Shown: in pieces, positions 1 to 47,994 of the stretch
Position numbering within the stretch: position 1 is the stretch's first letter
How the letters are laid out: the number at the start of each line of letters is the position of its first letter
IMG/VR virus record: IMGVR_UViG_3300048444_000320
Location: 1 to 49,056 of that record
DNA from: a virus
DNA length: 49,056 bases
Reading direction: 5' to 3' (one strand)
Notes under the pieces: generated by a model
Database searches by the model: none
Told to the model about the DNA's origin: nothing
Seen by the model: only the letters and a program-made list of their open reading frames with translations
Position numbers and translations under genes: made by a program

Positions 1-1489
1 CAACCGCTTGTGAGTCGCTGTCGGGTCCCATTTTGCAGGTGCCTACCGGATGGTAAATAAGCCCCGTTTTCGACTTTATTTCCTCGAGTAGTAGCGAGTC
101 GTTTGTCGCATTTTCAGTTGGAAACAAGCGCCCACCATTATGTTTTTTGAGCGCCGGTTGCGCCATTATTTCAAAGGCTTTTTTTATACCGTTTAACAGC
201 GCCTGTTGGTCTTCTTTGCTTCTTAAAAAGCCATAAGTGATTTGAGGCTTGTCCATTGGATTATCTGGGTTTAACTGAACCATACCGCGAGCCGTTGGAC
301 GTAGCAGACAGACGTGACAAGTGAACCCATTGGTTAGCGTGGGTAACCAGTCATAACCGCTATCGTTGAACATGACCGGTAGTAGGTGCACTTGTATATC
401 GGGCTCTTTAACCGCATTTGACGAACAATAAAAAGCACCGACTTCTGCAATTGAGTGAGCGAGCTGACCTTTTCGAGTAAACAGGTACTTTATGAAAGGC
501 ACTGAGAGCTTCAGTAAATTCCAGGGGGTCAGGGTCAGTCCATCTTTGGCTTTGTTTTTGTAGTGCAGGCTAATATCAACATGCTCTTGCAAGTTCTTGC
601 CCACACCGGGTAAGTCATGAACGACGTTAATGCCTGCATGCTTCAATTCACCCGCCGGGCCAATACCCGAGCGCAGTAGAATCTGCGGCGAATTAAAGGC
701 GCCAGCGCTTAAAATGACTTCTTTATTTGCTTTGGCAATGCAGGAACGGCCCGAGTGTTGATAACGAATGCCGGTAGCCGTTTTGTTGTAGAATACAATG
801 CGTTCAGTCAGACATCCGGTTAATACTTTGAGCTTGGAACGATGTAACGCCGGCTTAAGGTAAGCGTGGTAGGTGCTGCATCGCTTGCCGTTTTTCATAG
901 TGAACTGATAAGGGCCGTAGCCTTCTAACTGCTCCCCGCTAAAGTCAGGGCTTTCGGGTAAGCCGTATTCCCCACAGGCATTTAAAAATTGCGTGGAAAC
1001 CGAGTAATAAGGCGCGACATCTGAAACATGTAACGGACCTTCAGCTCCATGATAAGCGTTAGCGCCACGACTGTTATTTTCACTTTTGATGAAGTAGGGC
1101 AGTAAGTCGTTATAACTCCAGCCGCTGTTGCCTAAGGCGGCCCAGTGATCATAGTCGGATGCAAGGCCGCGAGTGTAGATCATGGCATTGATACCACTGC
1201 TGCCACCCAGCATTTTTCCGCGCGGCGTATAGCTGCCTTTAGACGTGGTTAAATGCGGCTCGTTTTCAGCGCGATACAGCCAGTTAAATTTGCGACTGTG
1301 CATAAAGCGGGCAAAACCCGATGGCATGTCAGAAAATAGCCCACCATGCGATGCTCCGGCCTCTAATAACAAAACGCTGTGTTTACCGCTTTCAGTGAGC
1401 CTATTGGCCAGTGTACAGCCAGCAGAGCCGGCACCGACAATAATATAGTCGAAAGACTCTTCTGTATTAGAGCGAAGCGACGTAGTCAT
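1..1489 (-). CDS. GMC-family FAD oxidoreductase (choline dehydrogenase-like), 3' end off the window
   Basis: The minus-strand frame is open from ATG at 1489 to the window edge, about 496 codons. An N-terminal FAD-binding GAGSAG motif lies at residues 19-24. It is followed by GMC signature 1 (GGSSGINAMIY, then RG..DYDHW) and signature 2 (GAFNSPQILLRSGIGP). Near the edge is the HPVGTCKMG block with the conserved active-site histidine region. The family oxidises alcohols such as choline or other primary alcohols with FAD; the substrate cannot be read from sequence. The start overlaps the end of sbcB by 23 bases, so the two are probably translationally coupled. It is a host gene outside the prophage. 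The extreme C-terminus is not visible. Confidence 0.9.
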   Translation of the reverse strand, partial: MTTSLRSNTEESFDYIIVGAGSAGCTLANRLTESGKHSVLLLEAGASHGGLFSDMPSGFARFMHSRKFNWLYRAENEPHLTTSKGSYTPRGKMLGGSSGINAMIYTRGLASDYDHWAALGNSGWSYNDLLPYFIKSENNSRGANAYHGAEGPLHVSDVAPYYSVSTQFLNACGEYGLPESPDFSGEQLEGYGPYQFTMKNGKRCSTYHAYLKPALHRSKLKVLTGCLTERIVFYNKTATGIRYQHSGRSCIAKANKEVILSAGAFNSPQILLRSGIGPAGELKHAGINVVHDLPGVGKNLQEHVDISLHYKNKAKDGLTLTPWNLLKLSVPFIKYLFTRKGQLAHSIAEVGAFYCSSNAVKEPDIQVHLLPVMFNDSGYDWLPTLTNGFTCHVCLLRPTARGMVQLNPDNPMDKPQITYGFLRSKEDQQALLNGIKKAFEIMAQPALKKHNGGRLFPTENATNDSLLLEEIKSKTGLIYHPVGTCKMGPDSDSQAV

Positions 1490-2930
1490 ACAGTGACTTT
1501 AAAAGACGCAATTTGTGGGCGTCTTCCTGATGCTGGTTAGCCAGCTCTTCCAGGCGCAGCGCAAAAGCGTCCGCAGAGAGCATACCTTCCGGAGGATCAA
1601 TAAGGCGTTGCTGACAAAATTGACGCCACTGGTTCAGCTCTTTGTCCGTTAATGTCGACGGATAGTTACGAGCACGGTATCTCAGCAGCAGCTTTTCCAT
1701 ACGCGGGTCTTCAAAGGCTAAATCTAACCCAGCTAATTGTTGCGGCTCGGACGCTCGAATAATTTCCATGTGCTTTTTGTCTTGCGGCGAGAAAAATCCG
1801 TCGTAAATTTGGTGGTCAACATCGGTCCTTGGGGCAAACTCTTTGGTTTGCTCGAACACTTGCATTAACTTGTCTCTGAACGCACTGTTTTCCTGCAGCC
1901 ACTGCGCATTGGCAGCTACGGTTTCCATATTGAGGTCAGCTCGTGCAGAAGCATCCTCAGAGATTGTTTTAATAGGCGCAAGAAATGGACTGCGGCCTAG
2001 ATGAATGTTTTGTAGACCACTTTTTTGCTGCCCTTGAGCTTCCAGCTCTTTGCGGCTGGTGTAAGTCAGTTCAACGAGTTCATCGACCGACTTATCAGCA
2101 AAGAGTTTAGGATCAATGCGTAAGTCCCAGGCTATGACGTTACTGTTTTGCTTAGGGTGAAAGCCTAGTGGCAATATGGCGGACAAATACCGGTTTACGT
2201 TGCCGTAAAAGCCGCTGACGTGTGCTAGAGGCTCAGGTGCTTGCCAGTTAAAAAGGTTAAGAAGCTTTTGCTTACGGCGAATACTATACGCCCACTGCCA
2301 TAACTTTGGCTGCTTTTCTTTAATGAGTTTAGCCAGACCAATGGTGGCGTAAACATCGGACATTGCATCGTGCGCCTGGCCGTGTTCAATGTTATTCGCC
2401 ACACTTAAGTGTTCGAGTTTCAGGCTGGGCTGACCATCATCATTATCCGGCCAGTTAATACCTTCAGGACGCAATGCGAAGCAGGCTCGGGTTACGTCAA
2501 TTAAGTCCCATCGTGAGTTGCCATTTTGCCAGCTGTATTCATAAGGGTCATAGAAGTTGCGATAGAACAGGGAGCGGGTTACTTCGTCGTCAAAACGAAT
2601 ATTGTTGTAACCAATAATGGTGGTGTTGGGCTTTTGAAACTCTTCGGCAATGGCTTTGCTGAACGCTGCCTCACTAACACCTTGCTTTAATGCGAGCTGC
2701 GGCGTTATTCCGGTAACTAAGGTTGCCTCAGGGTTCGGCAGAAAGTCAGGCGTGGGCTGAACATAAAGCGTTAATGGGCGGCCAACCACATTAAAATCAG
2801 TGTCGGTGCGAAGCCCTGCAAATTGCGCCGGACGGTCAACCAGCGGGTTAGCCCCCCAAGTCTCATAATCGTGCCAGTAAAAGGTCGGCTGATTCTCTTG
2901 TTCGTTATTGTTGTCTGAATATGGCTGCAT
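1467..2930 (-). CDS. sbcB: Exonuclease I (3'-5' ssDNA exonuclease), with N-terminus replaced by prophage insertion
   Basis: The 487-aa protein aligns by eye with E. coli ExoI (475 aa). DEDDh residues are present: D21 and E23 in HDYETW, D114 in RFDDE, H187 and D192 in HDAMSDV. It degrades ssDNA 3'-5' and acts in mismatch repair and recombination. Homology begins at FYWHDYETW, residue 17. The preceding 16 residues (MQPYSDNNNEQENQPT) lie mostly on the phage side of the attL core at 2870-2886. At the far prophage end, the same FYWH codons are preceded by a different start, MAQNELET. The current start is therefore phage-supplied. There is no good Shine-Dalgarno upstream of ATG 2930. The active site is intact, so function is probably kept, but expression may have changed. 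Confidence 0.95.
   Translation of the reverse strand: MQPYSDNNNEQENQPTFYWHDYETWGANPLVDRPAQFAGLRTDTDFNVVGRPLTLYVQPTPDFLPNPEATLVTGITPQLALKQGVSEAAFSKAIAEEFQKPNTTIIGYNNIRFDDEVTRSLFYRNFYDPYEYSWQNGNSRWDLIDVTRACFALRPEGINWPDNDDGQPSLKLEHLSVANNIEHGQAHDAMSDVYATIGLAKLIKEKQPKLWQWAYSIRRKQKLLNLFNWQAPEPLAHVSGFYGNVNRYLSAILPLGFHPKQNSNVIAWDLRIDPKLFADKSVDELVELTYTSRKELEAQGQQKSGLQNIHLGRSPFLAPIKTISEDASARADLNMETVAANAQWLQENSAFRDKLMQVFEQTKEFAPRTDVDHQIYDGFFSPQDKKHMEIIRASEPQQLAGLDLAFEDPRMEKLLLRYRARNYPSTLTDKELNQWRQFCQQRLIDPPEGMLSADAFALRLEELANQHQEDAHKLRLLKSLYDYVASL
2870..2886. repeat. attL core, 17-bp direct repeat
   Basis: CGTGCCAGTAAAAGGTC is repeated exactly at 47621-47637. Both copies lie inside codons for TFYWH of sbcB (minus strand). 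The repeats bracket an integrase-containing prophage, so this is the left attachment core. The true crossover could be a subset of the 17 bases. Confidence 0.9.
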
Positions 2931-2981
2931 GTCTTATACCGCGCGGCTTTGGTTGTGTTTATCTGTGTCGCCAGTTGTTCG

Positions 2982-3010
2982 ATTTATTCTCTTGTTTTCT
3001 TCTATTGCAA
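2982..3010 (-). promoter_or_regulatory. Candidate phage-borne promoter now reading into sbcB
   Basis: On the minus strand TTGCAA (3010-3005), a 17-base spacer and ATAAAT (2987-2982) resemble a sigma-70 promoter directed at sbcB. It lies in prophage DNA between attL and int. The match is moderate and no transcription evidence is available. Confidence 0.3.
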
Positions 3011-3020
3011 AATTCTATAT

Positions 3021-3060
3021 GCTACTAGCGTGCTATAAATTGATGCCTGCGTGCTATTTT
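3021..3060. repeat. Candidate integrase arm-type sites (left)
   Basis: GCTACTAGCGTGCTAT (3021-3036) and GCCTGCGTGCTATTTT (3045-3060) share the core GCGTGCTAT. A third copy, GCTACCAGCGTGCTAT, lies at 47541-47556 just inside the other prophage end and matches the first at 15 of 16 positions. Repeats at both ends near the cores are what integrase arm-binding sites look like. The second copy overlaps a possible GTG start of int. Confidence 0.5.
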
Positions 3061-3068
3061 GGATATTT

Positions 3069-4283
3069 ATGCTTACAGACAGACAACTCAAGAGCTGGAC
3101 CAAGAATCCTCCGGAGAAAACCCACGAGATTTCAGTCGGCAACCGCCTTTATGCCAGGGTAACGGATAAGGGCACTATTTCATTTCAGTTTCGCTATCGT
3201 ATTGGTGGCCGCAACACACGCATTACGCTTGGCTCATACCCTTTACTGGCGCTCAAATCAGCTAGAGATGAGGCTACACGATTGTCTGTGGTGCTGCAAG
3301 AAGGTGGTGATCCGAAGGTAGCTGCCCGCTCACGTTACTCAGGTGGCGAGTGGACGCTCGATAAATGTATTGATGAGTGGCTGAATAAACACGTAGCACG
3401 GAAACTGAAAGATAGCACGCGGGTGAACTATGCCAGTATCGCTGAGAAGCATCTTAAAGGGCGCTATTCCATTCCTGTCGAGCGTATAAGGATGGATGAA
3501 TGGCTAAGCCTATTTGATGGTATTGCTGAAAAGACATCTCCTTATAATGCCGGAGTGGTTCTCAAAGTTACAAAACGCGCCCTGGGCTGGTGTATGCGCC
3601 GCGAGCTTATTAATCAACCGACAGTAATGAACCTTGAAGTGAGTACGGTAGGCACAGGTAGCAGCAGGCGAGACAGAACGCTTGAACTGCATGAAATCGG
3701 TCGTATTTGGATGGCCATTGAAAACACTAAGCTATCTCTGGCGGTAAGGAATAGCATTAAGCTGTTACTTCTAACCGGTGCACGAAATTCAGAAGTGCGT
3801 GAAGCCAAGTGGAATGAGTTCGACTTTGAAAACCGAATTTGGACTCTGCCAAAAGAGAGAAGCAAATCGGGAGTCGCAATTCGCCGGGCACTCACAGATG
3901 AAATGATCCAGTTAGTTAATGCAATGAGAGCGACACCCAGTCCGACGTATGTATTCGGCTCAATGGATAATGACTTTCAAAAGCCAATAACGACTCATGC
4001 AATTCAAAGAGCTGTTCGTCGGTTGAGAGCCAAACTGAATATGGATGACTGGCGTGTTCATGACTTCCGGCGGTCGTTGGCAACACGGCTGTCAGAGCAA
4101 GGGATCCAGCCTCACATTGTTGAGAAGATATTAGGGCACAGTCTTGGCGGTGTTTTAGCAGTATACAACCGCCATGACTGGATAGATAAGCAGAACGAAG
4201 CTTACGAGACCTGGTATCAGTTAGTTAGCGCTGCAGCTGAGCATGCAGCTGGGCGCATTACTGCAGCCCAGCAAACTTCCTGA
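3069..4283 (+). CDS. int: Tyrosine-type phage integrase (P4/DUF4102 family)
   Basis: The protein is about 404 aa. The N-terminal DUF4102-like domain (SWTKNPPEKTHEISV...GSYPLLALKSARDEA) is followed by a SAM-like core-binding domain and the catalytic domain. Numbering from ATG 3069, the visible catalytic residues are R239 (LLTGARNSEVRE), H331 and R334 (VHDFRRSLA), H357 (ILGHSLGG) and Y366 (AVYNRHDW). It inserts and excises the prophage at attB in sbcB. A GTG at 3051 would add six residues; ATG 3069 was chosen because MLTDRQL resembles typical integrase starts, but neither start has a clear Shine-Dalgarno. It converges with the AlpA-like gene, overlapping it by 26 bases, so the two can interfere. 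Confidence 0.95.
   Translation: MLTDRQLKSWTKNPPEKTHEISVGNRLYARVTDKGTISFQFRYRIGGRNTRITLGSYPLLALKSARDEATRLSVVLQEGGDPKVAARSRYSGGEWTLDKCIDEWLNKHVARKLKDSTRVNYASIAEKHLKGRYSIPVERIRMDEWLSLFDGIAEKTSPYNAGVVLKVTKRALGWCMRRELINQPTVMNLEVSTVGTGSSRRDRTLELHEIGRIWMAIENTKLSLAVRNSIKLLLLTGARNSEVREAKWNEFDFENRIWTLPKERSKSGVAIRRALTDEMIQLVNAMRATPSPTYVFGSMDNDFQKPITTHAIQRAVRRLRAKLNMDDWRVHDFRRSLATRLSEQGIQPHIVEKILGHSLGGVLAVYNRHDWIDKQNEAYETWYQLVSAAAEHAAGRITAAQQTS
4248..4272. terminator. Hairpin at convergent int/xis ends
   Basis: GCTGGGC (4248-4254) pairs with GCCCAGC (4266-4272) around an 11-base loop. It sits where the int and xis reading frames converge. There is no convincing U-tract on either strand, so termination is only a suggestion. 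Confidence 0.3.
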
Positions 4284-6387: not shown

Positions 6388-8094
6388 TCACGCCGCACTG
6401 CGGGTTGCTGACTTCTGAGCGCGGTAAGAGGTTTGTAACGCCTCATAATCGGCTTCGCTCAGGTAACCCCGGTCTTTGGCTGTGCAAACTTCCTTGCCCA
6501 CGTCTTCAAGGTCACGCTTATTCGTGGCATCAGCAATCTTGTCGATTAGGAAGTTAGCCAGGCTTGATACCACGGTGGCGCTTTCCTGGTGCATCTTCAT
6601 GCCGGAAATCCATAGCGTTGCTTTGCCCTGGGACACGTTGAACTGATAGGCCACAGCCTGAATGATCTCGTTATCCGTTGGCGTGTAATCATCAGCAATA
6701 GGATTACTCTCGTTAGCTGGCGATGCTTCAGCTTCAACTAACGTGTCCGGCTTTGCCTCCGACTCCGGTGCCGGTTCAGGCTTAGTCTCTGCCTGCTTAC
6801 GCTTCTGCTCGGCTAATTCATGCTCGGTCAGGCGCTGCTTAACGATGGCACTGAAACTGTCGTTATCTTTCAATGCCAGGTCTTTGATGTCCGGGAATAG
6901 GAATTTAAGGTCGCTATCGACCTCTTTCAGGTAAGCTTGCCAATTCATCATTACCTGAACATGCAAGTCGTTAAGCTCGATTTTGACCTGTGCAAGGTGA
7001 TCATCAACTGCACCCTGCAAACCGTCGACCGTCTTCTTACCTTTCATGACAGATGCAAAATCAACATCAGGCATTGGAACCTGAAAATCGCCCAGGCCTT
7101 CATTCAAGCCATCAACGTGCTTCTGCAGTTTTTCCAGAGCGACCTTTTTGATGTCACCGCGGATTTCGTCTTTACGTGACTTAACCAGCTTATCCAGTTG
7201 CAGGCGTTTGCCACGAAGCTGCTCTTTAAGCTCATCGATGGCATTGAATAACGTATCGATACTCTGTGTTTGTGCCAGGGCATGCTTCTTGGCTGTATCG
7301 AGTTCACCCTCGGCTTTCCTGCAGAACTTAACCAGCTCTTCGGCGTTGGCAAAGTCCTGGTCAGTTTGCAGATCCGTGTTGATGCTTTTAACAAACGCCA
7401 GAGCGGTGTCCTTGTATGTAGCCAGGTTACTGCTCTTAACTTCGCCATCAACGCTGATCATTAATGTTGGTAATTCACTCGGCTTTTCAGCAACGACTTC
7501 TTCTTTTGCTGGCGCCGGCTCAAACTCTGCCAGGTCTGCTTTGAATTGCTCCCAGCCTTTAATGAGTTTATTGCGACGGCCACGAACCGGCGTGTACCAC
7601 ATGTATTCGAAGTTGTCTTTGGTGCCATCCGATACCACGAAAATGACTTTCTCGGCTTCATCAGCGACCATCAGCTGGTGCTCGAGCTGCCAGTAATATT
7701 CAGCCGGCAACTTCCCTTTGCGTACCGCCTCGGCCAGAGCTTCGTTCCACATCTTGTGCTCGAACAGGATATCACCCAGCATGGTCATGCCATCGAACGA
7801 TGCCAGGTACTCACCGTCTTCAGTTTCGCCGGTAGTGGGGAATAGCTCTTCACCAACAATTTCTTCCACCAATGGACGAGCTGATGCTTCCATTTCGTGA
7901 CCTTTATCGAAGAGGAACTTCTGCACGTATTCGCTGACTTCTTTCTCGGTACCAAGCGACTTGGCCTTCAGTAACTCGTTACGCGACATTTTCTTCGTCG
8001 CAGACATCATTGCCGGTGCTTCTGATGCAGTCATTCGAGTAGCGCGAGCCGCGTGCCACTCGGGTGAGCCCTGAACTAAATTTAAGATTTTCAT
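6388..8094 (-). CDS. YqaJ-family (lambda-exonuclease-like) recombination nuclease with long C-terminal extension
   Basis: The 568-aa protein has a YqaJ nuclease domain at residues 1-200: QGSPEWHAARATRMTASEA, KGHEMEA, D101 in SFDGM and E112/K114 in FEHKMW (the PD-(D/E)XK core). It digests dsDNA 5'-3' to make ssDNA for the partner RecT. The C-terminal part is a charged, largely helical region (LDTAKKHALAQ, LRGKRLQLDKL), then a Glu/Pro/Ala-rich linker and a small terminal domain. It is much longer than lambda Exo (226 aa). The start is 3 bases downstream of recT's stop. Confidence 0.85.
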   Translation of the reverse strand: MKILNLVQGSPEWHAARATRMTASEAPAMMSATKKMSRNELLKAKSLGTEKEVSEYVQKFLFDKGHEMEASARPLVEEIVGEELFPTTGETEDGEYLASFDGMTMLGDILFEHKMWNEALAEAVRKGKLPAEYYWQLEHQLMVADEAEKVIFVVSDGTKDNFEYMWYTPVRGRRNKLIKGWEQFKADLAEFEPAPAKEEVVAEKPSELPTLMISVDGEVKSSNLATYKDTALAFVKSINTDLQTDQDFANAEELVKFCRKAEGELDTAKKHALAQTQSIDTLFNAIDELKEQLRGKRLQLDKLVKSRKDEIRGDIKKVALEKLQKHVDGLNEGLGDFQVPMPDVDFASVMKGKKTVDGLQGAVDDHLAQVKIELNDLHVQVMMNWQAYLKEVDSDLKFLFPDIKDLALKDNDSFSAIVKQRLTEHELAEQKRKQAETKPEPAPESEAKPDTLVEAEASPANESNPIADDYTPTDNEIIQAVAYQFNVSQGKATLWISGMKMHQESATVVSSLANFLIDKIADATNKRDLEDVGKEVCTAKDRGYLSEADYEALQTSYRAQKSATRSAA

Positions 8095-8096
8095 GA

Positions 8097-8970
8097 TTAT
8101 TCGTCTCCCTGCGCTGGTGCTTGCTCGTCCGCAGCCGGTTGGCTTTCAACGGCTTTGATATGCTCTTGCTGCTCAGCGGTCAGGTCAGCTTTAGAGCTCA
8201 CCATATCGATGATTTGCTGAGCCGTGCGTTTGCCTGACTCGATGGCTTTCTTCCATTTCGGGAAGTTCTGTTCAAAGTCAGCATCCGGATACAGCTCACG
8301 CTCCGGACGACCGCTGGCTGATTCTTCACGCGGGTTGATTTCACGCTCACTGGCAGGTTGCTCCTGCAATTCATCCGAGCTGTAAACACCCAGAATGACG
8401 TCTGGCGCATAAAGACGAGCCCAGCGCTTAACAGCCAGGTAGCCCAGTTGTTGCTTGGGGTCAGAAGCCCATAGGGTAGAGTTACGAACTTGTGCCTGGG
8501 ACAACAGCAGTTCGAGCACCCGCGGTTCGTTCTCGCCTTTTAGCGTTGCCCACACACGAACGCCTAGGCCTTTTTCATCAGCAGCGGTCCAGTTGGGTGC
8601 CTGATACTGATTGCCTTTTTGAGAGGTCTTAGTGACGAAGTTGCCAATCACCTTTGTCCAGTCACCAAACCACTCATAGTGGAATGAGTCTTTCACTTTG
8701 GTTGATGAACAGACAACGGCGTTTACCAGTTGTGCTTCATACCCTAATGTACCGCTGACAACGTGGGTTTTTTGTGCAACTGCGAAGGGATTCATGCGCC
8801 ACTGTGCGGCCTGCATAATAACGGCCATACAGTCAGCGGGGTTCCCCGTTGGCCATCATATCTGCAAGGTTACTCATCTGGCTCATTGCCTGATAGTCTA
8901 GAACCATGTCAGTGGTGTTGCGGTGCTCTGCTGGCGCTTGATTCTGAAATTGTGCTATTTGTTCGCTCAT
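8097..8970 (-). CDS. recT: RecT-family ssDNA annealing protein, reading frame broken by a +1 shift
   Basis: The C-terminal 243 aa (from 8828) are clearly RecT: MQAAQWRMNPFAVAQKTHVV, LGYEAQLVNAVV and AVKRWARLYAPDVI. The true start is ATG 8970, with GGAGGTG upstream and an ATGA overlap with the preceding gene. That frame encodes the usual RecT N-terminus (DYQAMSQMSNLADMMANG) but stops at 8833. Skipping one G in the GGGG run at 8847-8844 joins NG to NPADCMAVIMQAAQW, the normal family sequence, giving about 290 aa. Either the gene is frameshifted (mutation or sequencing error), or a +1 recoding event is used. Internal initiation at 8828 lacks a Shine-Dalgarno. Confidence 0.8.
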
Positions 8971-41400: not shown

Positions 41401-43922
41401 TAACGGTCACTACATACGAAGAAAATGCTGTCACCCGCTCGAACGTTGAAAGCGTATTAAACGGCCTCGATAGCTATGCTAGCATCACAGCCACTTACCA
41501 GGACATTCAAAACAACGGCATCGTTGAGAAAGCCAATGACGCGGCGCTGTTTCTCGATGGCGCAGAGGGTACGTTTACATCCTTTGTTAGCAGCCTGAAC
41601 GAGCAGCTAAGCGAGCGCGAAGGGTTAGTCGACCAGAAGTTCACCAGCGTTGAAGAAACGCTCGACGCGCAGGCCGGCACCATCACCAGCCAGGCATTCG
41701 GCATATCAACCAACCGCGAAGCCGCGGAAGACGCAACGATTGAAGAGCTGAGAAACACGCTGGATTACGGACTGTATCGTCTCGGCGAGCTCGACAAAAA
41801 TGCGCGCTTTGCCATGGCGTTAGACCAGCTCCAAATCGACGTGTCAGACGAAGGCTCGCTGGCGAAAAGCATCGAGCAACTGAACAGCTTCACGCAGCAG
41901 GCCGGCGAGCAAATCGAAGCACAGGCAACGCGCTTATCGCAAGCTGAAACAGACATTAACGGCTACGCCCGGGCGCTTCAGATATTGTCCTCACGCGTCG
42001 GCTCGTCTGAAAACTTTGCTCAAGCGCAGCTGTACCTAAACAGCCAATACAACGAACAGCTTCAGCAGTACGAGGCCCGCGCCTATGTTGGTGTTGAGCA
42101 GGTGCAGGATGGCCGCGCTGTCATTACCGGCATCACCATCGGCGGCGTAACCAACGCCATCAGCGTCCAGGGTGATGTTTATGAGTTCGCAGACACGGAC
42201 GGCAACCCTCAGCTGTACTACGACACTGACGACAAGACCTGGTCGTTTGCCGGCAACATGGTTATCGGTGGCACCCGTGTCAGCACACCGGAAGATTATC
42301 AGCGCATCACAGACAACAACCTAATCCGCCCATCGGCCTACTGGACACCAGGGACATCAGGCTCGCAAGGCCCGTTCAGCAAAAATGGCTCGGACGATGA
42401 AAACGCGGTTGAATATCAAACCGGCCCGCTGGGCGCGGTCGAGGCTATCTGGACGACCGCCAACGGCAACGATAGTGGCGACGGCGGCTGGAATATCGAT
42501 GTGAATATCGATCCCGATAAGACCTACCGCAATACCGTTTGGATGAAACAGACCGGCGGTAACAGTCAGCGCTTGTACCTGGGCTGCTCACAGTCAAACA
42601 CAAAGAATCTGGACGGCACCAGTAACGGCAACCCATATCACTGGAGCGGCAACCTACCGCAGTTGGATAAATGGTACCTGGTTATAGGCATCATTCACCC
42701 GCAAAGTTACACAGGTAACGGCTCTGACTTGTCCGGCATTTACGACCCGGAAACCGGCGAAAAAGTCACGAGCATCACGGAGTTTAAAAACGCCGGCAGC
42801 GACACCCAGCGTCAGCGGGTTTATCGTTACTACGTAACCAACCCGAATCACAAAGCTCAGTTCGCCCGCCCGCGTTTTGAAGAGGTCAACGGAAACGAGC
42901 CAACGCTAGGCGCACTGATTGGCCGCATCCCGCAGGACGGCCCGCAGGGACCGGAAGGCCCACAAGGACCGCAAGGGCCGCAGGGACCAGCCGGCAACGA
43001 TGGGGCAACAGGGCCAGGATTCTTCGGCGGCCGCTATGACACAATCAACTGGAGCCAGGGATGGTCGCGCTTCACGGCGCTAACAGGCCGCAACCCGATT
43101 CCGGGCGATATCTTTGTACAGACACTCACTGACGGCTCGGACTCGTCTGCGCGCCAACGAAATGCTTCTAACAGTGGCTGGGACCAGGCTGCCCTGTTAA
43201 TCAACGGAAGCATGGTTGCAACCGGAACGATTGCCGGCGACCGACTGATAGCTGGCACTGAGTTAAACTCGCCAATTATTAAGTCAGGCAGGCTAGAGCT
43301 GGTCGGCAGCAGTTACATGAGCATCCAAACGGCCACCCCTTTTGGGCCAAACAATTTATTGGAGTGGAAAGGGCCGCGCAACAGCTACACGTACGATGAA
43401 GCGAATAAACTCGTGAAATTTGACGGACTCACAAAAGCAAACGCACTTCAGTACTTCAGTGACGCCGGTGACTCCTACTTTGGCGGCTCAATCACTGCCG
43501 GCACATTAAGAAACGCAGTGCAATCAACCCAACTCGGGAACACCGATGTAACAGTCGGCCCGTTCGGCTCTAACGGCGGTTTAATAGAAATTAAATGCTC
43601 AGTAAGCGCATCCAGAAGCTCTGGTTTAGTAGCGGGCAACTGCCCATACCCGGCACCGGCAAATCCATCCGGCACCCTGCGACTCTACAGAGAAACGGCT
43701 GGCGGCGAAATTCTTGTGGCCACTCAAAACGTAAATGGCTCTTACAACTGTTTAGATGAAGGGCCTGAGCATATCGAGAACTGGCAACTTAGCGGTTCAT
43801 TCACCTACACAGACAATCTACAAACGGCCTCGAATCGAACCTATCGGCTTGAGGTTACGCACAACTTACCGATTTACCCCAACGGTTCACAGAGCTTATC
43901 GCTCATTACGGAGGAAGCATGA
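38430..43922 (+). CDS. Tail tip attachment protein, J-like, with collagen-like stretch
   Basis: The 1830-aa protein has a hydrophobic N-terminus (residues 1-36) and the conserved J core (GYGKRRMGDKEAHVVAVTLA, WEWSDNSILCALDYQ, ERIMSSCGGKPYRRGGKMYL). Fibronectin-III-like domains (~480-660) and coiled coils (~670-1240, LSTVETDFQRFVEEDYADL) follow. There is a carbohydrate-binding-like domain near 880-960 and nine Gly-X-Y triplets at about 1504-1530. A C-terminal beta domain ends the protein. It forms the central fibre and likely carries the DGR-diversified adhesin encoded next (ATGA overlap). Confidence 0.9.
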   Translation: MPPAIAAVAVGIAAGVAASSVVVGIAVAIGTVALQNSLKPDMPGVSESAREAQTLTTEPLQPRRGIYGESVISGSIIGYGKRRMGDKEAHVVAVTLAGHNIEAAELYEINGKNKPTGTTVEIFHGDQSTASSTLLQYADGWTEDHIGFGVAYAVVTIPIDPDEMPSGLQNITFKVKGKRVYDPRKDTTVGGDGPHRPNDETTWEWSDNSILCALDYQRFHGYKPLGLNKFDLAHVMEQANICDEAVSYTDSEGEQQSEKRYTCNGSWTFDQAPSRVLERIMSSCGGKPYRRGGKMYLQTASYHGMAEITLTDTDAAGEITITPHRELKDRTNTVRASFQDPKRGYQPTDAPVVTNNVYVDRDGMELEDDLQLNFTNSSTMAQRLMKYHLERNRAGMRLEFPCKSKGLLALAGTTVRVDLPNEGIDKEFIVSDWQFDFKTKKTKLVLEEESPNLYSDSLVPSEGNVTPNTELPDLTRPEPPESLDFVIDSVSTHRQGYVTWSHPIPRAVTEYRVLVRKDGDEIIEYPVIASSSVQLKQDINGLDAGQYSIEIYARNRYDRTSLPATISLTLTEPSPPTSLGVTAGNWEITLAPTLAGIGLGTMFEFAYGTTDNIIGRGANIVIPGLTPDTEHEVFARTVNVLGNSDWLSATVQTTKDTSQVDPIIDQYTSRLSTVETDFQRFVEEDYADLQQLVNANAQEMQVRFGSELFAREESDAAILSGILQSAASRDEMRRRVDYSMELIGAAVDINYETGEITNRAFSYTDERFVQAQLSIDGVAGEVEAAVERISYAEDQVETLNAELLLLPGVIEQKATAIVADSISALEPAHAFNFFDSAQGWSAVTGTVTPGVNKILLTTGDIENQALSYNGSEFPVIRMKVRRTAGDGWLGNITATFTDDTTQTYQGIIEPIASTGSDVIRIVDFTALESYHGNIKGLRITLGQTTADEFELTSLNIGKSDAALQDLTNIQAQVTEASSQISALEGQIQDRVTVTTYEENAVTRSNVESVLNGLDSYASITATYQDIQNNGIVEKANDAALFLDGAEGTFTSFVSSLNEQLSEREGLVDQKFTSVEETLDAQAGTITSQAFGISTNREAAEDATIEELRNTLDYGLYRLGELDKNARFAMALDQLQIDVSDEGSLAKSIEQLNSFTQQAGEQIEAQATRLSQAETDINGYARALQILSSRVGSSENFAQAQLYLNSQYNEQLQQYEARAYVGVEQVQDGRAVITGITIGGVTNAISVQGDVYEFADTDGNPQLYYDTDDKTWSFAGNMVIGGTRVSTPEDYQRITDNNLIRPSAYWTPGTSGSQGPFSKNGSDDENAVEYQTGPLGAVEAIWTTANGNDSGDGGWNIDVNIDPDKTYRNTVWMKQTGGNSQRLYLGCSQSNTKNLDGTSNGNPYHWSGNLPQLDKWYLVIGIIHPQSYTGNGSDLSGIYDPETGEKVTSITEFKNAGSDTQRQRVYRYYVTNPNHKAQFARPRFEEVNGNEPTLGALIGRIPQDGPQGPEGPQGPQGPQGPAGNDGATGPGFFGGRYDTINWSQGWSRFTALTGRNPIPGDIFVQTLTDGSDSSARQRNASNSGWDQAALLINGSMVATGTIAGDRLIAGTELNSPIIKSGRLELVGSSYMSIQTATPFGPNNLLEWKGPRNSYTYDEANKLVKFDGLTKANALQYFSDAGDSYFGGSITAGTLRNAVQSTQLGNTDVTVGPFGSNGGLIEIKCSVSASRSSGLVAGNCPYPAPANPSGTLRLYRETAGGEILVATQNVNGSYNCLDEGPEHIENWQLSGSFTYTDNLQTASNRTYRLEVTHNLPIYPNGSQSLSLITEEA

Positions 43923-45454
43923 GTATCCTATGGAGAGCAAGCAGCGTTACCGTCACGAACGGTAGCGCACTAATCACCGTCCAGACCGGCGACGACATCG
44001 CAGGCCTGAAGCCCGGCTCATCACTGTATATTGAAGGGCAGCTACTCGAAGTTAAGCGCACCTTTACAACAGACACGGGTGTTAACACTATCGAAACCAT
44101 CGAGAGCTGGGATGCTGGCTCAGGCAGCGGAAAAGTTGCAAAAGGCGTTTTGCACCCCGGCGCAATTCTTGCACTGAGTGAGCAGGCAAAGCAGCTGATT
44201 GAAGCATCAGAAGCGCTGTTCGGTAGCCAGTCAGTGAACCCGACAGCTGATTCAATTGCAAAACGCGACGACGGAGGCCGTGTAAAAACAAACACACCAA
44301 GCGCCAACAACGACGCGGTTAACAAAGGCTATTTAAAAGGGGCAGCAACGCGCGACGTTGGCACATCAGGCAGCGAACTGCCGGATACCACTGAGCTCAA
44401 TAAGCGCCTGGGCACTACCGGCAATGTCATCAAGTCAATATCAATTCCGGGCGGCTTATCTTTCATCCCTGACACTTTGCGCAAGCAAGTTGAGTTATCA
44501 ACCCAGGGCAAGAACACGGTCCTTTACAACGCAAACGGCGACCCCAGCATTATGGTGCCCATCTACAAGTTCCGCTATGAGGATTTAGGTTTTGCGGGCG
44601 ACCCGTTCGGCACCGGTGTAGCGACCGCATTTATGGTCAACGGAGTGGAAAAATCCGAGGTTTTCATTGGCGCATTCCAGGCGCACTATCACAACGGCCA
44701 GGTCGTATCATTACCCGGACTTAACCCGCGCACATCGGTTAACTTTGACACGGCGAAATCATGGTGCCAGGCGAACGGCCAGGGCTGGCATTTAATGTCA
44801 GAGCACGAGTGGGCAGCGATAGCGCTCTGGTGCATGGCCAACGGATTTGAACCTCGCGGCAATACAAACTACGGGCGCGCGCATGACGCGACCCACGAAT
44901 TCGGCCGCCGACAAGACGGTGGCATTGCAGGTGACGCATCAGGCACAGCCAGAATACTTACTGGCTCGGGACCCGAAGCATGGCGGCACGACAACTCACC
45001 TTTCGGCATTGCTGACCTGACAGGCAATATATGGGAATGGAGCGACCAGCTTAAACTGGTTGACGGCCGCGTCTATTGCACCACCGACAATAACTTTGAG
45101 GAGGATGAAATTAACTGGGTACCGCAGGGGCATTACCTGTCCAACGAGAGCGGGAACCTAACCCTGAAGAACAGCCCGGGCGTATCGAATGAGGACGGAC
45201 TCAGCACCGATTGGGGCGCACTTTCAAAAGAAGCCGGCTACACCGAATCACAGCTACTGCAACGCCTGCTATTCTCACCTGCCGGCATCATCCCGCAAGG
45301 CCGTCTATACGCCCGAACGGGAGGCGAACGGCTCCCGTTTCGTGGCGGCTACTGGACCGTTGGCTCCGATGCCGGCCTCGCCGCTCGCCACTTGGTCTAC
45401 GTGCGTTCGTTCACGCACAGCGGTGTCGGGTTTCGCCCCGCTTTTGTCGCATGA
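43919..45454 (+). CDS. DGR-diversified tail adhesin (C-type-lectin/FGE-fold variable protein)
   Basis: The 511-aa protein's N-terminal part is fibre-like (VKTNTPSANNDAVNKGYLKG is a tail-fibre motif). From about residue 215 it has the formylglycine-generating-enzyme-type C-lectin fold used by DGR targets: GWHLMSEHEWAAIALWCMA, NSPFGIADLTGNIWEWSD and a terminal GVGFRPAF. Residues 470-508 are encoded by the variable repeat (45327-45442). Compared with the template, 13 residues differ, including every template Asn. It should bind the host receptor at the tail tip; its binding surface can be re-diversified. Confidence 0.93.
   Translation: MSILWRASSVTVTNGSALITVQTGDDIAGLKPGSSLYIEGQLLEVKRTFTTDTGVNTIETIESWDAGSGSGKVAKGVLHPGAILALSEQAKQLIEASEALFGSQSVNPTADSIAKRDDGGRVKTNTPSANNDAVNKGYLKGAATRDVGTSGSELPDTTELNKRLGTTGNVIKSISIPGGLSFIPDTLRKQVELSTQGKNTVLYNANGDPSIMVPIYKFRYEDLGFAGDPFGTGVATAFMVNGVEKSEVFIGAFQAHYHNGQVVSLPGLNPRTSVNFDTAKSWCQANGQGWHLMSEHEWAAIALWCMANGFEPRGNTNYGRAHDATHEFGRRQDGGIAGDASGTARILTGSGPEAWRHDNSPFGIADLTGNIWEWSDQLKLVDGRVYCTTDNNFEEDEINWVPQGHYLSNESGNLTLKNSPGVSNEDGLSTDWGALSKEAGYTESQLLQRLLFSPAGIIPQGRLYARTGGERLPFRGGYWTVGSDAGLAARHLVYVRSFTHSGVGFRPAFVA
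45327..45442 (+). repeat. DGR variable repeat (VR)
   Basis: This 116-nt segment matches the template repeat 45871-45986 except at 17 positions, all of which are A in the template (8 to T, 6 to G, 3 to C). The last 20 bases, ending CGGGTTTCGCCCCGCT, are free of mismatches from 45427 and lie where the initiation-of-mutagenic-homing (IMH) segment is expected. VR ends 12 bases before the stop codon of the adhesin gene. Confidence 0.97.
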
Positions 45455-45518: not shown

Positions 45519-45863
45519 ATGCACGTACAACAAGATTTAATCGTCATTCAACGCATCGAAGAGATGATAAAATACGGGTATAAAGCGCTCGCTCACTTTC
45601 CGAAATCGGAGCGGCATGTGTTGAGCGCTGAAATCCGCCAGAGCATGTTTCGACTACTGCGACTGATGATTGTTGTATCAAAGCGCTACCACAAGAAAAC
45701 AACACTACAGGACGCTGACGCAGAGCTTGAATTAACCCGCCGATTAGTACGACTAGCCAAAGATCTCGGGCATCTTCCCTTCAAGAAATACGAGGTCTGG
45801 AGTCGTCATTTGGCAGAGATTGGCCGCTTTATCGGAAGCTGGCTTAAGAAGGAAAAGGGCTAA
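45519..45863 (+). CDS. avd: DGR accessory variability protein
   Basis: The 114-aa all-helical basic protein (MIKYGYKALAHFPKSERHVL, EIRQSMFRLLRLMIVVSKRY, LELTRRLVRLAKDLG) has the four-helix-bundle layout of Avd, the S23-like pentameric partner of DGR reverse transcriptases (BPP-1 Avd is 128 aa). It binds the RT and template RNA and is required for cDNA synthesis. Gene order adhesin - avd - TR - RT is as in BPP-1. Its stop is 7 bases before the template repeat. Confidence 0.92.
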   Translation: MHVQQDLIVIQRIEEMIKYGYKALAHFPKSERHVLSAEIRQSMFRLLRLMIVVSKRYHKKTTLQDADAELELTRRLVRLAKDLGHLPFKKYEVWSRHLAEIGRFIGSWLKKEKG

Positions 45864-45870
45864 GTGCTAC

Positions 45871-45986
45871 AACGGCTCCCGTATCGTGGCGGCAACTGGA
45901 ACAATGGCTCCAATGCCGGCCTCGCCGCTCGCAACTTGAACAACGAGCGTTCGAACACGAACAGCAATATCGGGTTTCGCCCCGCT
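45871..45986 (+). repeat. DGR template repeat (TR)
   Basis: The 116-nt invariant template contains 27 adenines; 17 of them differ in VR and no other base does. In the VR frame it has ten AAC/AAT codons, the codons that give the widest amino-acid range after adenine randomisation, plus single TAT, GAG and ATC sites. It is transcribed with avd and the RT, copied with errors at A, and the cDNA replaces VR. Confidence 0.97.
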
Positions 45987-46151
45987 CTTAATGATTGCCC
46001 GAAGCAGCGCGGCCACGGCTTCGCTGACAGCGCATCTATTAAAAGGGCGCTTAGTCCTCACCCAACCGGTGAAACATATACAGGCAGCCGTAGGCTAGTA
46101 GGCGCACCGAGCGCTTTCGGCTGCCGCCCTAAGCAGTCAAAAGGATTTGAA
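45987..46151 (+). ncRNA. DGR spacer RNA between TR and RT
   Basis: The 165-base stretch has no supported gene and is rich in inverted repeats. The strongest is GGCAGCCG (46083-46090) pairing with CGGCTGCC (46118-46125). Another is GAAGC...GCTTC just after TR. In BPP-1 the region 3' of TR folds, binds RT-Avd and primes cDNA synthesis; this stretch is in the same place and of similar size. The 3' part carries AAGGA, the RT ribosome site. Confidence 0.7.
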
Positions 46152-47180
46152 GTGAAGACGCACAAGAACCTTTATCCGAGCATTTATGCGCTTGAAAACT
46201 TACATAACGCATACTTAAAAGCGCGCCTCGGAAAACGCGAACGAACAGAAGTACTGCGCTTTGAGCGAGACCTGGAAGGCAACCTAATCCGCCTTCAGGA
46301 GCACCTGATAAACGAGACCTACAGCACCGGCCAATACCGAAAATTCTATGTACACGAACCCAAGCACCGACTGGTGGCCGCATTACCGTTCCGCGACCGC
46401 GTAACTCAACACGCGCTTATTAGTGTGATAGAGCCGATTTGGGAGCGCCGCTTCATTCATCACAGCTACGCTTGCCGCCCTGGCAGAGGAATGCACAAAG
46501 GCAGCACCCAGGCGCAACAATGGCTGCGCGAAGTCCAGCGCCAGCATGGCACCGCATACTGCCTTAAAGCCGATGTCAGCAAGTATTTCGCATCAATTAA
46601 CCAAGAGGTTTTAACCAGCATATTAAGCCGCAAAATAGCCTGCCAGCGAACACTGAACCTATGCAAAAACATCATGGGTTCATGGCCGGAAGGGCTACCC
46701 ATTGGCAACCTCACCAGCCAGTTGTGGGCTAATGTTTATTTACACGAACTGGACGCCATGGTTAAGCACAAATTACGCATCCATCGGTATATTCGCTACA
46801 TGGATGACTTTGTCATTATTCACCACGATAAAAGCTATTTAAAAGCCGTTTTAAATACCATTACTGAGTTTTTAAATAATGTTTTAAAACTGCGCTTAAA
46901 TAATAAAACGCAGATATTCCCGGTCAGCCAAAATAACGGTCGAGCACTCGACTTCCTCGGCTATAGAACATGGCCAACGCATAAGCGAATACGCAAAGAT
47001 TCGGTCAAGCGAATGAATAAAAAGATGAAGAAGATGGCACGCCTTTACGCCGCCGGAGACATCGACCACGACTATATAAAGAGACGCATTGTAAGCTGGA
47101 TAGGCCACGCACAATACGCCGACTCATACCGCATCAGAAACAAAGTCTTAGGCTCTGTTACTTTCAAACGAGAGGGTTAA
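46152..47180 (+). CDS. DGR reverse transcriptase
   Basis: The 342-aa protein starts at GTG 46152 with AAGGA six bases upstream. The same frame is open back to 45864 through TR, but that part is repeat/spacer, not RT. RT motifs seen: RKFYVHEPKHRLVAALPFRD, ADVSKYFASI (first catalytic Asp), LPIGNLTSQLWAN (the IGNxxSQ form typical of DGR RTs instead of QG) and YMDD at residues 216-219. FLGYRT and a basic C-terminus follow. It copies the TR RNA with adenine-specific errors. Confidence 0.96.
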   Translation: MKTHKNLYPSIYALENLHNAYLKARLGKRERTEVLRFERDLEGNLIRLQEHLINETYSTGQYRKFYVHEPKHRLVAALPFRDRVTQHALISVIEPIWERRFIHHSYACRPGRGMHKGSTQAQQWLREVQRQHGTAYCLKADVSKYFASINQEVLTSILSRKIACQRTLNLCKNIMGSWPEGLPIGNLTSQLWANVYLHELDAMVKHKLRIHRYIRYMDDFVIIHHDKSYLKAVLNTITEFLNNVLKLRLNNKTQIFPVSQNNGRALDFLGYRTWPTHKRIRKDSVKRMNKKMKKMARLYAAGDIDHDYIKRRIVSWIGHAQYADSYRIRNKVLGSVTFKREG

Positions 47181-47540: not shown

Positions 47541-47556
47541 GCTACCAGCGTGCTAT
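47541..47556. repeat. Candidate integrase arm-type site (right)
   Basis: GCTACCAGCGTGCTAT matches the left copy at 3021-3036 at 15 of 16 positions. It lies 65 bases inside attR. Confidence 0.5.
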
Positions 47557-47609: not shown

Positions 47610-47657
47610 TCACTCATTACCGTGCCAGTAAAAGGTCTCTAGTTCGTTTTGTGCCAT
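47610..47657 (-). pseudogene. Stranded native 5' end of sbcB
   Basis: On the minus strand ATG 47657 opens MAQNELETFYWHGNE and then stops. The codons for TFYWH are the attR core, and the same codons in sbcB at 2870-2886 continue into the exonuclease. Before integration the gene would have read MAQNELET-FYWHDYETW. The prophage therefore separated eight native codons, and presumably the native promoter to their right, from the rest of the gene. Confidence 0.88.
47621..47637. repeat. attR core, 17-bp direct repeat
   Basis: This is an exact copy of the attL core at 2870-2886. Chromosomal DNA resumes to the right. The distance between cores is 44,751 bases. Confidence 0.9.
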
Positions 47658-47754
47658 AACCTAAGCTTAAGCTGCTTGTATAAAAGAAAAACTATAGCAT
47701 GAGCTCGGCACCAAATTCAGTCACTTATTATACGTCGGTTATCGAAACAGCGCT

Positions 47755-47994
47755 TTATACCCGCTCATACCCCTCAATAATTAAGTCGTAAGCTTTCTTC
47801 AATTTTTCTGTCAGTGTTAGGTTGTCGTCGTGACGAAAGGCGAGCTCGGCATGTGGCAATAGCCGTTCGCCTACACGACGGGCAATGGCATCTTCGAGTT
47901 GCTGCTGGTCGCCTGATGCGGCTTCGGTTGGCACTTCAACGGTAATGTCGCCTTTCGAGCCAATGTGCTCATAGTTAACACGATAAGTTGGCAT
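47755..47994 (-). CDS. Small conserved-looking host protein, unknown function
   Basis: The 79-aa protein begins with strands (MPTYRVNYEHIGSKGDITVE) and ends with helices (DNLTLTEKLKKAYDLIIEGY). GGAGGG lies five bases before the ATG. It lies upstream of the native sbcB start on the same strand, so it may be cotranscribed with sbcB in strains without the prophage. I recognise no family. The 97 bases between it and the sbcB fragment hold only AT-rich leader sequence. Confidence 0.65.
   Translation of the reverse strand: MPTYRVNYEHIGSKGDITVEVPTEAASGDQQQLEDAIARRVGERLLPHAELAFRHDDNLTLTEKLKKAYDLIIEGYERV

Follow-up and report, generated by a model that had tools for sequence, protein, structure and literature searches.

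An Idiomarina siphophage prophage in the 5′ end of sbcB supplies an in-frame start for exonuclease I, and related integrases recur at the same site

Introduction

The 5′ end of sbcB, the gene for exonuclease I (ExoI), is a described integration site of temperate phages. Phages Sf101 and 2851 of Shigella and E. coli have in common a 13-bp core, CGTAATCGTGAAA, in the 5′ end of this gene (PMC4159516); the accessible part of that report describes the integration of Sf101 there and mentions no replaced N-terminus. Three further papers, as far as their accessible text goes, name sbcB as an occupied site or leave the junction undescribed (PMC8309913, PMC3519850, PMC12029490). In other systems an insertion of this kind is accompanied by a new gene start: the available portions of two reports describe dusA-specific islands and prophages that enter a housekeeping gene at its 5′ end and provide a new N-terminus (PMC4482086; IMEVchUSA3, PMC8409611), and in the case of IMEVchUSA3 a lacZ fusion revealed a new, weaker promoter (PMC8409611). 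The same source, in the part available, attributes the same kind of start and promoter replacement to SXT at prfC (PMC8409611). Here we describe a comparable arrangement in the virus record IMGVR_UViG_3300048444_000320 (49,056 bases, analysed at full length and hereafter called the window), in which host DNA flanks at both ends a 44.7-kb Idiomarina siphophage prophage delimited by two copies of a 17-bp core, one of them within sbcB.

The window phage uses the same host gene and the same motif codons as 2851 and Sf101, whose core corresponds to the FHDY codons on the other strand; as with those phages, its core falls in the sbcB 5′ end and an integrase of the same family lies adjacent to sbcB in divergent orientation. 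It differs from them in host order and phage body, and its core is displaced a few bases upstream. With the dusA elements it shares the 5′-end insertion and the new N-terminus; the target gene is another one, and expression was measured there. SXT/R391 integrative and conjugative elements are conjugative and target prfC, and they resemble the window phage in start replacement; the in-frame replacement start typical of the SXT/prfC and dusA class is present here too. Both the sbcB site (2851, Sf101) and elements that exchange the start and promoter of their target gene (SXT/prfC, dusA islands) are therefore already known, and the newer part of this work is a broader family of sbcB elements together with probable relic starts. 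A literature search, with most subscription journals and supplements outside its scope, returned no paper on a replaced sbcB N-terminus or on this Idiomarina phage.

Results

The junctions and the restored gene

The core, CGTGCCAGTAAAAGGTC, occurs exactly twice in the window. Its left copy lies within sbcB and its right copy within a stranded MAQNELETFYWH start. The features that define the junctions are the following:

1467..2930, minus strand: sbcB (exonuclease I) as found in the lysogen, 487 aa, with Pfam RNase_T and Exonuc_X-T_C
2870..2886: att (attachment) core, left copy, at the junction of prophage and sbcB; codes on the minus strand for T-F-Y-W-H and the first base of the next Asp codon
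2886..2930, minus strand: phage-coded first 15 codons of sbcB, MQPYSDNNNEQENQP
2931..3068, minus strand: phage arm separating sbcB from the integrase gene (int), where the sbcB expression signals presumably lie
3051..4283, plus strand: tyrosine integrase (GTG at 3051 by the open reading frame call; ATG at 3069 is likely)
47621..47637: att core, right copy
47634..47657, minus strand: stranded native sbcB start, MAQNELET
47658..47754, minus strand: native sbcB upstream region, severed from sbcB and conserved in prophage-free relatives

Read on the minus strand as (CC)G ACC TTT TAC TGG CAC G, the core encodes T-F-Y-W-H and the first base of the catalytic Asp codon, which bears out the proposal of a first-pass annotation of this DNA that the att core lies in the sbcB codons for TFYWH. 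When the two flanks are fused at the core, a single open 479-aa ExoI results, starting MAQNELETFYWHDYETW; in the lysogen the protein has 487 aa, its first 15 residues being phage-derived and followed by TFYWHDYETW. The same annotation had placed the native MAQNELET at 47657-47634, as we also find, with the qualification that its T is core-coded and seven native residues lie outside the core. It had also assigned 16 residues to a phage-coded N-terminus: the phage N-terminus is indeed in frame, but only 15 of the 16 lie outside the core. A 17-bp direct repeat is by itself not rare, as 16 repeated 17-mer positions exist in the window; the assignment stands because of the position of the core and the restored gene, and not because of repeat length.

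Prophage-free relatives have the expected native arrangement. In I. piscisalsi (L003) the host DNA runs uninterrupted across the insertion site, with 93% DNA identity to the right flank of the window over 1445 bases up to the stranded start and then straight into sbcB. Its ExoI begins with MAQNEQETFYWH, as it does in the relatives G275 and G299, so that the native start anticipated for prophage-free strains was indeed recovered. The ExoI body of the window is intact and 98% identical to that of prophage-free kin (I. piscisalsi).

The placement of the core is also informative about the protein. Alignment with E. coli ExoI identifies the core-adjacent Asp as part of the HDYET motif, and Asp21 and Glu23, which we take to have a catalytic role, are invariant in 27 ExoI sequences (the structure alignment took 27 of the fetched ExoI loci). 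An AlphaFold model has a mean predicted local distance difference test score of 89.5, with values below 50 for residues 1-11 and the first strand at 16-24. Since the core encodes strand 1 up to the catalytic Asp and the tail is predicted to be disordered, the phage would so swap only a disordered tail, leaving the ExoI fold intact in the model. No general rule holds by which the phage tail exceeds the native one in length: in 11 pairs compared by eye it was longer in 7, equal in 2 and shorter in 2.

A family of sbcB-targeting elements

We searched for the integrase in 395 genomes of Alteromonadaceae (the family of G002), counting matches with E <= 1e-60 as strong. Thirteen genomes held one, and in all 13 int is adjacent to sbcB in divergent orientation. 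By integrase identity, G003 (94%), G009 (86-87%) and one viral contig (85%) carry the same phage type; in G003 and G009 the likeness extends to most proteins of the window phage, int through to the final gene, with RecT, YqaJ and the retroelement described below among the matches. G009 is a Pseudidiomarina, whose ExoI is 55% identical to that of the window. The integrases of the remaining 11 genomes are 32-39% identical to the window's, and two more viral contigs have a 36% integrase relative at sbcB. In three other integrase-bearing proviruses, that of G009 among them, the phage start and arm are near-identical to those of the window.

The family extends to E. coli. A query with the K-12 sbcB start matched 5371 of 5426 E. 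coli genomes; in 4793 of these a single location covers at least 80% of the query, and in 578 it does not. Among the matches listed, seven rows below 80% break off at query base 156 or start at 129, in the region of the HDY codons, and beyond these seven the broken sites may have causes other than a prophage. In two such genomes an integrase lies 180 bp from sbcB in divergent orientation, and MTGTDKQPT or MTDTDKQPT replaces MMNDGKQQST at the start of sbcB. These E. coli prophages, like the window phage, thus supply a start, MTGTDKQPTFLFHDYE for MMNDGKQQSTFLFHDYE. Their integrases share 36% identity with that of the window across 380 aa (E about 1e-88) and fall in the same supported clade.

The window, G003, G009, the three viral contigs, the 11 other genomes and the two E. 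coli genomes amount to 19 elements, and all 19 have an ATG in frame ahead of the motif with no intervening stop, against 2 of 19 and 1 of 19 in the other frames. When the arms were shuffled over 2000 rounds, on average 2.9 of the 19 had an in-frame ATG, and never more than 8. That the start is restored in frame in all 19 elements speaks for preservation of ExoI function and against its loss.

The bodies of 12 elements were retrieved (that of G050 was left out), two of which, G147 and G276, extend beyond their contigs. Among the other ten, a second exact core of 14-23 bp together with a stranded in-frame sbcB start was present in seven (G003, G009, G101, G186, G216, G323 and G381), at core-to-core distances of 6.5 to 43 kb. 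The exact-repeat search missed G128 and G368, where a protein-motif search recovered a stranded in-frame start with no exact 12-mer, which may be diverged or belong to another element. The second sbcB start of G186 (L165) and that of G101 (L179) are only 6.5 and 16 kb away, far shorter than phages, and these elements are possibly satellites or decayed; the integrase frame of G186 is interrupted by a stop.

In a 37-row integrase tree, from which short or duplicate non-sbcB integrases were omitted, the 19 sbcB-site integrases lie on one side of a branch (97/98). A 34-row tree with nine phage integrases added, from which the sbcB rows L089, L086 and L184 and the majority of non-sbcB rows were dropped, either as near-copies or to shorten the computation, has an enteric branch made up of E. 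coli, mEp234, SEN34 and 733R5. The mEp234 integrase is 99% identical to that of Sf101 and its phage attachment site (attP) is annotated as sbcB-similar; the SEN34 arm encodes NTFLFHDYE. A strictly sbcB-specific integrase clade, considered at first, was rejected once the enteric phages were added, 733R5 being recorded at tRNA-Arg. The preference for sbcB so appears, from these trees, to be old and to have changed at least once.

Probable relic starts in integrase-free Idiomarina

Four Idiomarina genomes (L002, L005, L006 and L008) have an MQP-type sbcB start, and in each of them 0.8-1.4 kb of other DNA separates sbcB from the genes that normally adjoin it; an integrase search in these four found nothing closer than 28% identity. 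The 100-base 5′ regions of these genes, compared with integrase-bearing arms, reach best scores of 77-109 (shuffle maxima 28-32), while native-type kin score 12-30 (shuffle maxima 22-26, a few native rows being slightly above their own shuffles). On an sbcB tree of 25 rows, which omitted the partial sbcB of the viral contig and many Pseudidiomarina and Pseudoalteromonas loci, the relic label requires at least three changes. From these sequences, a start replacement can probably outlive the prophage. We further consider it likely that the replacement is permanent: in Idiomarina the sbcB 5′ end would have been exchanged on three or more occasions, and the element-type start, together presumably with its expression signals, would have outlasted the integrase and most of the element.

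A prophage-free sbcB beginning with MQP had been named in the first-pass annotation as a finding that would speak against its proposal. Such genes do occur in these four genomes; we do not take them as refuting it because of the 0.8-1.4 kb of foreign DNA upstream of sbcB and the native start of close kin. The other way to read them is that the MQP-type start is an ancestral host start, once picked up by the phage, and the I. baltica group offers something in its favour, having an MQS-type start, only about 100 bp to the neighbour gene and 5′ regions with a weak resemblance to the phage arm (scores 17-42, shuffle maxima 26-30). We find this doubtful, as the four genomes are nested among native-type kin with at least three changes of label, each has extra DNA at the site, and the best scores of 77-109 stand above their shuffle maxima of 28-32. 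The weak I. baltica likeness suggests, at the sequence level, that the phage start itself came from a host sbcB.

Small genes lie between the host neighbour and the phage-type sbcB start in two of these genomes (L002:5165-6000 and L008:4890-6000); we take them to be toxin-antitoxin-like pairs.

The phage arm and other features of the window

The native upstream region is 44.7 kb away from sbcB, and the expression signals of the gene must therefore be in the arm at 2931-3068. We infer that the arm supplies the sbcB promoter. Two candidates were dropped: a clear promoter in the arm, the only match being at chance level, and a leaderless start from TATAAG right before the ATG, a box conserved neither in G003 nor in the viral contig. 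The remaining features of the arm, the phage and the right flank are these:

3039-3012: weak promoter-like match within the phage arm
3028-3035 and 3049-3056: two GCGTGCTA repeats, candidate integrase arm sites
6388..8094, minus strand: YqaJ-type nuclease of the phage
8097..8828, minus strand: RecT-type annealing protein of the phage
47548-47555: third GCGTGCTA copy
47755-47994: small host gene, right flank

The terminase, portal, head, tape-measure and tail-fibre genes identify the phage as a siphophage (PHROGs families: terminase, portal, head protease, tape measure and central tail fibre J). We take the left-flank gene to be choline-dehydrogenase-like and the right-flank gene to be isoaspartyl-peptidase-like. 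The stranded native start continues as a 15-residue frame, MAQNELETFYWHGNE (47657-47610, minus strand), which enters the phage antisense to its last gene. The prophage also contains exact direct repeats of 18 to 22 bases (9527/16900, 20037/36737 and 26575/36742), perhaps operators or shared promoters, and a diversity-generating retroelement (45327-45445 and 45871-45989, with 43919-45454, 45519-45863 and 45864-47180). The latter comprises an FGE-sulfatase-domain gene whose 3′ end carries the variable repeat, a template repeat, a bAvd-like gene and a reverse transcriptase; 17 of 18 differences between template and variable repeats are at template A, and its genes are retained in the G003 and G009 prophages.

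Discussion

We hold it very probable that a temperate siphophage integrates in sbcB and restores the gene with its own start. The tyrosine integrase would recombine attP with a bacterial site (attB) in the sbcB codons for the first beta strand and the catalytic His-Asp, severing the native promoter and first codons. The phage arm would then contribute, in frame, a start codon followed by a short N-terminal tail that is polar and disordered, along with its own expression signals, and the host would keep a full-length ExoI from a phage-coded start until excision rejoined the native one. Choosing catalytic-motif codons as attB may keep the site conserved across hosts, and gene restoration may spare the lysogen the cost; some lineages probably lost the element later while the phage-type start remained. 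In the sequences, the site, the core, the stranded native start, the in-frame replacement and the recurrence across related integrases are all directly visible; expression of sbcB from the arm, ExoI activity and excision in the lysogen are what we infer from them.

Several observations weigh against this interpretation. Promoter prediction in the arm gave one weak match, about the chance expectation, and no clear Shine-Dalgarno sequence precedes the phage-supplied sbcB start. In a class-level search of 369 genomes, six had weaker integrase matches (E 6e-60 to 6e-45), and 0 of 7 loci had sbcB within about 1.5 kb per side. For G264, exact-repeat and motif searches found no second sbcB start within 60 kb. 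Specificity for sbcB is not absolute, since 733R5, recorded beside tRNA-Arg, nests inside the sbcB group. The 19 elements are also non-independent: four belong to the group of this phage, the two E. coli elements are near-identical, and so are two of the viral contigs.

The weak promoter prediction could also be read as a sign that the insertion simply disrupts sbcB and that the in-frame phage start is accidental or unexpressed. Against this stand 19 of 19 elements in frame, compared with 2.9 from shuffles, and an ExoI body that is intact and 98% identical to prophage-free kin; we regard it as highly improbable. A different proposal would be that the site was chosen for control of ExoI, the arm promoter raising or lowering its level to favour phage recombination or replication through RecT and YqaJ. 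The phage does encode both proteins, the arm is common to the divergent sbcB and int and holds repeated candidate integrase sites, so that phage proteins could affect sbcB, and inactivation of ExoI (sbcB) has, according to the accessible text of one source, long been known to alter recombination pathways (PMC7516269). However, any 5′-end insertion would carry its own promoter, and special control is not in evidence. Pfam RecT was found in 2 of 10 sbcB-element genomes, both holding close relatives of the window phage, and ERF in 0 of 10, other annealing families being outside the search. We therefore rejected a RecT-ExoI partnership as the general reason for the site, and find regulatory motives improbable as its explanation, although RecT may have a role within this one phage group. 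The functional link between ExoI control and the phage RecT put forward in the first-pass annotation is accordingly unsupported; of its suggestion that the phage controls the start and perhaps the transcription of sbcB, the first part holds through the in-frame N-terminus, while the second, a promoter supplied by the phage, is presumed.

Taken as the restoration of a gene by the phage that cuts it, these results link the sbcB site, mainly known from E. coli and Shigella phages, to a wider integrase family of marine Alteromonadaceae, in which every element provides a start of its own for the interrupted gene. The use of catalytic-motif codons for attB would account for a broad host range. The probable relic starts raise the question of the ExoI level of a lysogen relative to a cured strain, and they offer a way to read past integrations in genomes now devoid of the element.
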